Part shown: positions 16,001-25,000 of the stretch, in pieces | Position numbering within the stretch: position 1 is the stretch's first letter | Layout of the letters: each line of letters opens with the position of its first letter | Source of the DNA: Ampullaceana balthica | Lineage: Eukaryota; Mollusca; Gastropoda; Lymnaeidae | Length of the DNA: 64,000 nt | Direction of reading: 5' to 3' | Assembly: GCA_944989445.1 (NCBI GenBank) | Contig: CALYLW010000690.1 | Location: forward strand, 208,501 to 272,500 | Position numbers and translations under genes: made by a program | The notes under the pieces: model-generated | Database searches by the model: none | Seen by the model: only the letters and a program-made list of their open reading frames with translations | Told to the model about the DNA's origin: nothing

Positions 16001-19000
16001 TCCATTGTGACGCACCTACTGAAGTCTGCTTGGAGCATTTTGTCTATCAACTTCTCCATCTCTGCCAGCTGTGAGCCAAGGTGTCTGGTGGTGAACAAAG
16101 CAATAACTGATTATGATATGGGCAGGACCAGGCTGTTTCTACAGTATCTAAGTCAAAACAAACAAACAGGACCAGGCTGTTTCTACAGTATCTAAGTCAC
16201 AACAAACAAACAGGACCAGGCTGTTTCTACAGTATCTAAGTCACAACAAACAGGACCAGGCTGTTTCTACAGTATCTAAGTCACAACAAACAAACAGGAC
16301 CAGGCTGTTTCTACAGTATCTAAGTCACAACAAACAAACAGGACCAGGCTGTTTCTACAGTATCTAAGTCACAACAAACAAACAGGACCAGGCTGTTTCT
16401 ACAGTATCTAAGTCACAACAAACAAACAGGACCAGGCTGTTTCTACAGTATCTAAGTCACAACAAACAAACAGGACCAGGCTGTTTCTACAGTATCTAAG
16501 TCACAACAAACAAACAGGACCAGGCTGTTTCTACAGTATCTAAGTCACAACAAACAAACAGGACCAGGCTGTTTCTACAGTATCTAAGTCACAACAAACA
16601 AACAGGACCAGGCTGTTTCTACAGTATCTAAGTCACAACAAACAAACAGGACCAGGCTGTTTCTACAGTATCTAAGTCACAACAAATAAACAGGACCAGG
16701 CTGTTTCTACAGTATCTAAGTCAAAACAAACAAACAGGACCAGGCTGTTTCTACAGTATCTAAGTCACAACAAACAAACAGGACCAGGCTGTTTCTACAG
16801 TATCTAAGTCACAACAAACAGGACCAGGCTGTTTCTACAGTATCTAAGTCACAACAAACAAACAGGACCAGGCTGTTTCTACAGTATCTAAGTCACAACA
16901 AACAAACAGGACCAGGCTGTTTCTACAGTATCTAAGTCACAACAAACAAACAGGACCAGGCTGTTTCTACAGTATCTAAGTCACAACAAACAAACAGGAC
17001 CAGGCTGTTTCTACAGTATCTAAGTCACAACAAACAAACAGGACCAGGCTGTTTCTACAGTATCTAAGTCACAACAAACAAACAGGACCAGGCTGTTTCT
17101 ACAGTATCTAAGTCACAACAAACAGGACCAGGCTGTTTCTACAGTATCTAAGTCACAACAAACAAACAGGACCAGGCTGTTTCTACAGTATCTAAGTCAC
17201 AACAAACAAACAGGACCAGGCTGTTTCTACAGTATCTAAGTCACAACAAACAAACAGGACCAGGCTGTTTCTACAGTATCTAAGTCACAACAAACAAACA
17301 GGACCAGGCTGTTTCTACAGTATCTAAGTCACAACAAATAAACAGGACCAGGCTGTTTCTACAGTATCTAAGTCACAACAAACAAACAGGACCAGGCTGT
17401 TTCTACAGTATCTAAGTCACAACAAACAAACAAACAAACAGGACCAGCCTGTTTCTACAGTATCTAAGTCAAAACAAACAAACAGGACCAGGCTGTTTCT
17501 ACAGTATCTAAGTCACAACAAACAAACAGGACCAGGCTGTTTCTACAGTATCTAAGTCACAACAAACAAACAGACCAGTCGTTAAGAAACCAATCCTCAA
17601 CTGCTGGCCCTTTAAACTTGCAATGCCCTGATGGTCTTAAATTTTATTTTCTTCCAAATTAAGCAACAGTACAAATAATTAAAATAGTTCAAGCAATTTC
17701 TATGGAGTTTTTTTAGGCAATCAACACAATATCAACAGACCAAGAAATGAATGCGCACTTCACTACTTCAGCTGATTGTCAAAATATTTCTGCTCACTTA
17801 TATTTAGCTAATGCAAGCTAGGGTTGTGCAGTTACATAGCATGAATTTGTTAAGAGTATTCAATATCAGGATAATGTGAAGATATTATTGATACTTTGGG
17901 ACAGGGCATTTCACTTGGTATTTATTAGCACTAGAGGAGAAATCAATCTGCATTTCATGAACAGCCAGGTTTAAATGTTAAAGAAATGTTTCTGGCTACA
18001 TTAGCATTGTGTCTGACACCAGTGCACAATGCTGAACCAAGCCGCAGCACACCAGTGCACAGTGTTGAACCAAGCCGCAGCACACCAGTGCACAGTGCTG
18101 AACCAAGCTGCAGCACACCAGTGCACAGTGCTGAACCAAGCCGCACACGTGTCAGTATTTAAAGAACTTCCCTACCTAAAGCTGTGGATGCCAGCCAGAT
18201 CCTTGTTGAGCACATCCTGGGAGGTGGAGATCAAATCAAGGGACCCGATGAACTCATTGTTGGACAGCAACCTCTGGATGGTGGGCTGGGTCTCATGGAT
18301 GGAGGACATGATCTTCAGCTGAGGACACAGAGGACAATGTATCTAACAGGTGAGGACACAGAGAACAATGTATCCAACAGGTGAGGACACAGAGAACAAT
18401 GTATCCAACAGCTGAGGACACAGAGAACAATGTATCCAACAGCTGAGGACACAGAGAACAATGTATCCAACAGCTGAGGACACAGAGAACAATGTATCCA
18501 ACAGCTGAGGACACAGAGAACAATGTATCCAACAGGTGAGGACACAGAGAACAATGTATCCAACAGGTGAGGACACAGAGAACAATGTATCCAACAGCTG
18601 AGGACACAGAGAACAATGTATCCAACAGCTGAGGACACAGAGAACAATGTATCCAACAGCTGAGGACACAGAGAACAATGTATATAACAGCTGAGGACAC
18701 AGAGAACAATGTATCCAACAGCTGAGGACACAGGGAACAATGTATCCAACAGGTGAGGACACAGAGAACAATGTATCCAACAGCTGAGGACACAGAGAAC
18801 AATGTATCCAACAGCTGAGGACACAGAGAACAATGTATCCAACAGCTGAGGACACAGAGAACAATGTATCCAACAGCTGAGGACACAGAGAACAATGTAT
18901 CCAACAGCTGAGGACACAGAGAACAATGTATCCAACAGCTGAGGACACAGAGAACAATGTATCCAACAGCTGAGGACACAGAGAACAATGTATCCAACAG

Positions 19001-22000: not shown

Positions 22001-25000
22001 CTAACAGCTGAGGACACAGAGAACAATGTATCTAACAGCTGAGGACACAGAGAACAATGTATCTAACAGCTGAGGACACAGAGAACAACTAAGAGTTAAA
22101 AATACAAAAATGTATCAAGTATTTATAGCCCTTTTATTTAAAAACCCACAAATCAAACTAAAAATAATGTGATTTTTGTACTAACTTTATTAAATAGTGC
22201 CATATAGTTGGCCCTTGTACGTGACAGCTTGAGGACTTTGAGAGACTCTTTGGCTATCTTTTCATTGATCACATTCATACATTCCCTGGGGAGAGACAGG
22301 AAATTTAAACTTAGAAATACAACATTTTGTGTGTGTTTTATGATTTGTTAAACAACATTTCTTCTAATGATAAACATAGCTTGTGTGTATGATAAACATA
22401 GCTTGTGTGTATGATAAACATAGCTTGTGTGTATGATAAACATAGCTTGTGTGTATGATAAACATAGCTTGTGTGTATGATAAACATAGCTTGTGTGTAT
22501 GATAAACGTAGCTTGTGTGTATGATAAACGTAGCGTATGTGCACCGTACTGTCATCTGTGTGGTTGTTAGGATACGAATGTTTATTTAATTCTTATATGT
22601 ATGATATTATCTTTATGTAAAGCGCTGTGAGCCCAGTTCCTTGCTGGGGTACAGCGCTATATAAATTATCAATCTATTATTATTATTATTATTAAACCTG
22701 CAAATGGCCCTCCCTGATTAACTGCTTGTCATTAGGAATTCATTGAAGGATTCCCCAGCTGGATTAACCAAACGAACAAAGCAAATAATGCCTGGATATC
22801 AAAGGCAGCCAGCTCATCACAAATGTCCATGCTAATCAACACAGAACGTATTGGTAATCAACACAGCCTGTGTTCAACTGACTTATTTCAAATATCAATA
22901 TATATTACTGGCATATTTCAAATATCAATATATATTACTGGCATATTTCAAATATCAATATATATTACTGGCATATTTCAAATATCAATATATATTACTG
23001 GCATATTTCAAATATCAATATATATTACTGACATATTTCAAATATCAATATATATTACTGGCATATTTCAAATATCAATATATATTACTGGCATATTTCA
23101 AATATCAATATATATTACTGGCATATTTCAAATATCAATATATATTACTGGCATATTTCAAATATCAATATATATTACTGGCATATTTCAAATATCAATA
23201 TATATTACTGGCATATTTCAAATATCAATATATATTACTGACATATTTCAAATATCAATATATATTACTGGCATATTTCAAATATCAATATATATTACTG
23301 GCATATTTCAAATATCAATATATATTACTGGCATATTTCAAATATCAATATATATTACTGGCATATTTCAAATATCAATATATATTACTGGCATATTTCA
23401 AATATCAATATATATTACTGGCATATTTCAAATATCAATATATATTACTGGCATATTTCAAATATCAATATATATTACTGGCATATTTCAAATATCAATA
23501 TATATTACTGGCATATTTCTCTGTTTACTATCTAAAACTAAACTTCAGACACAACCTCCAGACAAGCCCCAGCTCTCACTAAATGTGAACACAAACAGCC
23601 TGCTGACCTGAGGTGTTTGATACACTGCACTAAATGTGAACACAAACAGCCTGCTGACCTGAGGTGTTTGATAAACTACACTAAATGATAGGTGTTAACA
23701 CAAACAGCCTGCGGATCTGAGGTGTTTGATACACTGCACTAAATGTCAACACAAACAGCCTGCTGACCTGAGGTGTTTGATAACATACACTAAATGTCAA
23801 CACAAACAGCCTGCTGACCTGAGGTGTTTGATACACTGCACCGTGTGGGTCAACTTCTCCTGCAGCTCATCGTGGGAGGTCATGGCATGGAAGAAGGCCT
23901 CGGACTTCTGGGAGATCTGCCTGGCTATCCTCACCTCAACGATGTCAAGGTAGTGGCTGAGCTGAGGGGCACGGGAAAATAGTCTCACAGTTACAAAAAA
24001 CATTGGTCAGTTACCCTAGTGTGAACCTCCCCTCTCCCCTCTTTGGGATACACTATTAAGAGACATTCATTATTGATCTAGCTTATTTTTAAAGTCTAAA
24101 TTCTAAAATTAGATGTGCGTTTAACGTTTGGCCTTGGGAAAGATTGATGACCTAAGTGATATCATCATTCACCTTTTCCTGGAGCAGTTTTGATGACTGC
24201 CGCTTGTCTGTTTGATGGCTGACCTTGACCTTGTCTGTTTGATGGCCGACCTTGGACTCCTCTATCTGAGACCAGGGAAATACTGTGTTGAAGATGTCAG
24301 GGTTCTCCAGGTTAAAGTGTGTGGACATAAACAACTAGGGACATAGAAGGGGAGAACAAGGTAAACCAGATGTTACAGTCCAATGGACAGTTGATGCACA
24401 GAAGCTAGATTTTGTGAAGGCACACAACATTTTGATAGAAAAAACAATGTTAAAAGAATGCATCACGCCATCAGTAGTGTTACAGTAAACGTTCCTTGGG
24501 GTCACTACTACAAACCTGAAAGTTTATGTACAACAAGAGCCTTATAACTTATGTGGATATAGCAATGTGTACATGACCATAACATACCCATTAAATCTAT
24601 CTTTCAAAGCGTGTCTCTAAGAAATTACTTAACTGATACACACTGGAAACTTACTTTTATTTGATCAAATTCTGCCCTGCTTTGCTCTGTCAAATCAATG
24701 GGAAAAAATGTAATTAGACAAATAATTTGTTTGAGTAATTAATTTAGTTAATAAGTTTAACAATGTCACTGCCACTCTCATATCTTTATTTTACTATCCC
24801 CCCCCCACACCCACCCAGCGTTTCACGTCTTACCGCCCTTCCCCACACCTCATGTGTAACCCAACTTAACTTTAACCATTTTTTACAACAGCACTAAATA
24901 ACACTGGCTTATAGCATTAACTTGATGTGGACAAATATTCTGACATTTATTAATGACAGCACCAGATGTTGCAGCATCTAACAATAAGGCATTGTTGGTA

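Follow-up and report, generated by a model that had tools for sequence, protein, structure and literature searches.

Intron 7 of the VPS54 gene of the snail Ampullaceana balthica ends in a long minisatellite whose units resemble the splice acceptor of exon 8. This raises the question of which of the many copies is joined to exon 7, and of what becomes of transcripts joined to any other. The locus lies in a stretch of 64,000 nucleotides from contig CALYLW010000690.1 (positions 208,501 to 272,500), here called the window, and all coordinates below are positions within it. The VPS54 gene (3921..27880, minus strand) was modelled with tblastn as a guide and splice sites picked manually, the exon boundaries being based on homology and the GT-AG rule. 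The model comprises 25 coding exons from an ATG at 27880 to a TGA at 3921, with 24 GT-AG introns and a single uninterrupted frame of 977 amino acids. In a protein search with a 751-residue query, for which 7,990 candidates were scored and the best 120 of 1,139 matches listed, the top match among those 120 was Lymnaea stagnalis VPS54, with 90% identity over the query, and the next were from Bulinus, Biomphalaria, Physella and Aplysia. The multiple alignment put identity to the L. stagnalis protein at 94%. A Pfam scan of five exon-bearing stretches of the gene returned no family at an E-value of 0.01. Exon 7 (22186..22285, minus strand) ends AATAAA|GTTAGT, which places intron 7 (18319..22185, 3,867 nt, almost all of it array) in phase 0. 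Exon 8 (18176..18318) begins with CTG, and the junction between the two exons, NK|LK, was free of insertions in all ten aligned homologues, nine named molluscs among them.

TRF described the array as 121.7 copies of a 31-bp unit at 18316–22088, with 97% matches and 0% indels. We decomposed it into 121 complete, gap-free units and a 22-nt partial copy at the distal end, with the sense-strand consensus TTGGATACATTGTTCTCTGTGTCCTCAG|CTG, to which 70 of the 121 units are identical. Since the array extends over 3.8 kb without indels, no further test against chance was needed. Read in the direction of transcription, intron 7 consists of 97 nt of unique sequence, the partial copy and then the 121 units, which reach into exon 8: the last three bases of the exon-adjacent unit are the CTG that opens the exon, and its other 28 nt are intronic. 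The authentic acceptor, with its last intron base at 18319 and first exon base at 18318, is thus the unit boundary closest to the exon. The original prediction had identified the gene, the exon number, the array and the coincidence of acceptor and first unit boundary correctly. It had given the exon-adjacent acceptor as the consensus, whereas the unit actually reads TTAGATACATTGTCCTCTGTGTCCTCAG|CTG, and the end of the array has been corrected to 22088, the most distal CTCAG ending at 22070. Variation between units is greatest at position 3 (27 A and 2 T among 121) and at position 28, the G of the AG, which is C in 12 of the 121; in units 105–117, the variants follow a mostly three-unit pattern. 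The suggestion that the array grew out of the exon–intron junction holds for the acceptor end of the unit, including the three exon bases. For the rest of the unit, we found no convincing source in either the start of exon 8 or the 97-nt intron flank: local alignment against shuffled sequences gave P = 0.028 for the former, which, uncorrected for the two tests, is too weak to support a claim, and P = 0.40 for the latter.

Each unit carries a pyrimidine-rich tract followed by the first three exon bases. An AG is kept at 109 of the 122 unit boundaries (121 units and the partial copy); 12 of the others have AC and one has CG. Numbered from the exon, the units lacking AG are 2, 3, 8, 9, 15, 33, 49, 86, 106, 109, 112, 115 and 117. 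Only 2 and 3, and 8 and 9, are adjacent. Acceptor strength was scored with a profile built from the 23 other acceptors of VPS54, a set of 23 sites only. The authentic site scored 10.73 and the 108 intact AGs upstream scored 9.73–11.17, so that by this gene-derived measure the copies upstream match the acceptor itself in strength. Elsewhere on the same strand, 3,371 AGs were scored, of which 14, real acceptors included, reached the authentic score. The proposal that the array offers a series of near-identical, functional-looking acceptors is therefore borne out for these 108, but not for every unit, as 13 of the 122 boundaries have lost the AG. We also considered that loss of the AGs nearest the exon, in units 2 and 3, protects the authentic site. 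This pattern was spotted post hoc, and units 8 and 9 form another such pair; the idea was dropped. Recursive splicing was rejected as well, because the sense-strand boundaries read CAG|CTG and hence provide no AG|GT ratchet. On the plus strand, opposite VPS54, the G-to-C variants within 18316–22088 generate 12 donor-like CAGGTGAG motifs.

To follow the consequences of acceptor choice, we joined exon 7 in silico to all 121 upstream boundaries in turn and translated the products. None of them, neither the 108 with AG nor the 13 without, gave the full-length frame. Translation stopped inside the array for 95 boundaries and in exon 8 for 26; the corresponding numbers were 88 and 20 for boundaries with AG, and 7 and 6 for those without. 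Unit 1, whose intronic part occupies 18319..18346, has a TAG in the exon 8 frame 27 nt before the exon, so an in-frame extension through this unit never stays open. The same unit includes, besides the authentic CAG, a TTAG 24 nt upstream of the exon that is not a unit boundary. Its use would keep the frame and add eight residues (IHCPLCPQ), giving a protein of 985 amino acids. With a score of 2.9, it is weak by the profile, and it appears to be the sole open alternative acceptor. Of all unit boundaries, the exon-proximal one alone gives the full-length protein.

We then asked how the spliceosome might tell these copies apart, and looked at the supply of branch-site motifs. The consensus unit and its TTAG variant contain no YTNAY, nor even TNAY. 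Intron 7 as a whole has 17 YTNAY motifs (12 CTCAC, four TTGAT and one TTAAC), and the 12 CTCAC correspond to the 12 units in which G has become C. Among these are units 2 and 3 (18347..18408), where the change from AG to AC places an A 33 and 64 nt before exon 8, respectively. The TTAG of unit 1 is the one AG between the unit 2 motif and the authentic acceptor, and it lies 9 nt past the unit 2 A; AGs within 12–15 nt of a branch site may be bypassed (PMC1431707). From the unit 3 motif, the first eligible AG downstream is this TTAG and not the authentic site. At the distal edge of the array (22070..22099), TTAAC, with its A at 22096, lies 27 nt before the CTCAG of the partial copy. It is possibly the original branch site, although it is now almost 3.8 kb from exon 8; under simple scanning it would favor the far-end CTCAG. 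The AG-free zone of an intron with a distant branch point was not found here, as 135 AGs lie between this TTAAC and the authentic AG.

A YTNAY is found 15–55 nt upstream of 14 of the 109 array AGs, including the authentic one at 33 nt, and an array AG drawn at random has a probability of 0.13 of falling among these 14. The exon copy is not unique in this respect, because 13 other AGs also have the motif in range. Scanning from the 17 motifs with a minimum distance of 10, 12 or 15 nt predicted the same 16 acceptors in each case, the authentic site included. The motif must be regarded as a weak marker, since it occurred in 64% of 5,000 random 41-nt intronic stretches and within range in 19 of the 24 VPS54 introns, intron 7 being one of the 19. 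Seven of the 93 possible single substitutions of the unit create a YTNAY, and two of these seven also destroy the AG; the variant seen in 12 units is one of those two. It is possible, if doubtful, that a single G-to-C change, by turning CTCAG into CTCAC, both removes a competing acceptor and supplies the copy immediately downstream with a branch site. The choice of copy would then be encoded by which unit had changed; the exon-adjacent copy would carry such a mark, which array turnover could shift. We offer this as a hypothesis rather than a result. That loss of an AG should itself create a branch motif may be a new point.

The intron 7 array is one of 23 arrays with a period of at least 10 in VPS54, which cover 10,042 of 24,181 bases of the gene (25 rows, 23 in the gene, were merged by hand from the TRF table, leaving out an AT microsatellite at 7058–7186). 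Two others on the minus strand cross splice boundaries: a 51-bp array over the exon 6 donor (23577..23841), which takes in 23 exon bases and contains four exact copies of CAAACACCTCAG|GTCAGC, and a 38-bp array over the exon 9 donor (15807..15991), which takes in 34 exon bases and contains four exact copies of GCAGATGAG|GTAAGC, the authentic donor being included in both counts. A 41-bp array (3707..3956) extends from the final coding bases across the TGA stop codon. The three exact downstream donor copies in each of the exon 6 and exon 9 arrays all led to early stops. In each of the three splice-boundary arrays, the exon-side copy was the only one of those tested to give the full protein, which is what would be expected if arrays of this kind are tolerated through the retained original site.

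That splice boundaries are hot spots of array birth in this genome is suggested by the three arrays that cross them and the one that crosses the stop codon. Ten of the 23 arrays lie no more than 40 nt from a boundary, where random placement of one-unit seeds on the array-collapsed gene predicts 6.8 (P = 0.10), a weak tendency that gives a hint of non-random placement. The arrays that actually straddle a splice boundary, however, numbered three of 23 against 2.7 expected (P = 0.52), or four if the stop codon is counted as well (P = 0.29). With no excess of straddling, special targeting of splice boundaries was discarded, and a hot spot is a very unlikely explanation.

Some other repeats were noted in passing. 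A 36-bp array takes up almost all of the intron between exons 15 and 16 (10298–11839, minus strand). This intron, at 1,542 nt, has a length divisible by three and no in-frame stop, a property unique among the 24 introns, and its retention would yield an uninterrupted protein of 1,491 amino acids with a repeat insert of 514 residues. Coding exon 5 contains an in-frame 27-bp repeat (KVGHQTDKVKVSHQTDK; 24189–24254, minus strand) that faces a 9-residue gap in nine of the ten aligned homologues, L. stagnalis included; Pecten has other residues there. Elsewhere in the window, a 36-bp array of 14.3 copies with 100% matches (36492–37007) lies inside open frames of both strands, and a 58-bp array of 61.4 copies (60324–64000, plus strand) begins shortly after a donor-like CAAG|GTAATG that ends an exon-like open frame and extends to the end of the window. 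The broken open frames at 34129–35964 (plus strand) resemble what we take to be the relic of a hAT-type transposase.

How the intron 7 array should be understood depends on what becomes of its internal acceptors. The original prediction had raised the possibility of an acceptor reservoir, in which many copies are used to produce a family of protein isoforms. Judged by the gene-derived profile, the 108 intact AGs upstream are strong enough, but no unit boundary upstream of the authentic one yields the full-length frame and none of the ten aligned homologues has an insert at the junction; at the protein level such a reservoir is ruled out, and overall this reading is extremely unlikely. The same early stops would fit an array that poisons a sizeable share of the transcripts, which would use internal acceptors and be degraded, so that array length tunes the level of VPS54. 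All of the strong internal acceptors do lead to early stops, and for 13 of these 108 a YTNAY lies 15–55 nt away. Against this, regular splicing is reported to be undisturbed by the comparable amphioxus repeats tested (PMC3087553), and we consider tuning of this kind unlikely. Alternatively, the repeat might have been misjoined, or its copy number inflated, during assembly, as long arrays with so many identical units are difficult to assemble, and the number 121 is the value in this one assembled sequence. The structured variants of units 105–117, the distinct units at the edges and the numerous other arrays within the window all argue for a genuine repeat, and an artefact is very unlikely.

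We think it likely that the array is a minisatellite of the mirage type, described in amphioxus, whose growth from the 3′ end of intron 7 was probably neutral, and that the exon-proximal copy is the one used. A tandem repeat would have captured the end of the intron and expanded by slippage or unequal exchange, lengthening the intron from roughly 120 nt to 3.9 kb. The spliceosome would normally take the copy next to exon 8, a choice that the frame analysis and the homologous proteins support indirectly, and transcripts spliced to other copies would meet early stops and then be degraded. Less certainly, the choice of copy may be set by branch-site supply. The change from AG to AC in unit 2 would have removed the nearest competitor and at the same time provided CTCAC 33 nt before exon 8, with the TTAG near enough to the branch A for bypass.

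The intron thus presents a natural competition experiment: more than 100 near-identical acceptors that differ mainly in their distance from the exon and their supply of branch motifs. Splice junctions and lariats from this locus would bear on how the spliceosome selects among many equal 3′ splice sites. The findings also indicate that splice-boundary minisatellites of the amphioxus type occur in molluscan DNA, here with three in a single gene, a rate that random placement explains.

A search of titles and abstract openings found no report of splice-boundary minisatellites in molluscs, and in the accessible part of one mollusc paper (PMC3862624) the word "minisatellite" is confined to the reference list. 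In the slug Deroceras laeve, tandem repeats are described as adding 28.39% of the genome to the masked share (PMC12506671), which fits a repeat-rich background. The arrangement has a precedent: passages of PMC3087553 and PMC3902484 describe amphioxus mirages, tandem copies of exon–intron boundaries in Adh3, TnC, the globins BflGb6 and BflGb9, and PGBD5. They report that mirages are unstable in length, and that RT-PCR of the globins, together with data on Adh3, suggests that regular splicing is unaffected. The VPS54 array shares the sequence features of a mirage: a minisatellite-like series of tandem copies across an exon–intron boundary, albeit a thin overlap of three exon bases, many of them with splice signals that score like the authentic site. 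By the same accounts, mirages occur at either the 5′ or the 3′ boundary and differ in scale, BflGb6 having six and three units of 150–160 bp in two haplotypes, against 121 units of 31 bp here, a copy number far above those given in these passages. Units in Adh3 measure 10–72 bp; that of the snail, at 31 bp, includes three exon bases only. The snail gene also differs in having three such boundaries, and in the change from AG to branch motif, of which the passages make no mention.

Related cases involve other outcomes. Intron gain through tandem duplication of AG/GT segments, as discussed in PMC3087553, likewise duplicates splice signals but makes a new intron, whereas in VPS54 an existing one was lengthened. 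The human gene IFI6 (6-16) also has a minisatellite at a splice boundary with units serving as splice sites, two downstream units being used as donors (Turri 1995, as cited in PMC4526556); the snail units, in contrast, are acceptors, and none of the internal boundaries would give a full-length protein. Taken together, these comparisons suggest that the array in VPS54 is a very large and probably harmless example of the amphioxus type of repeat.
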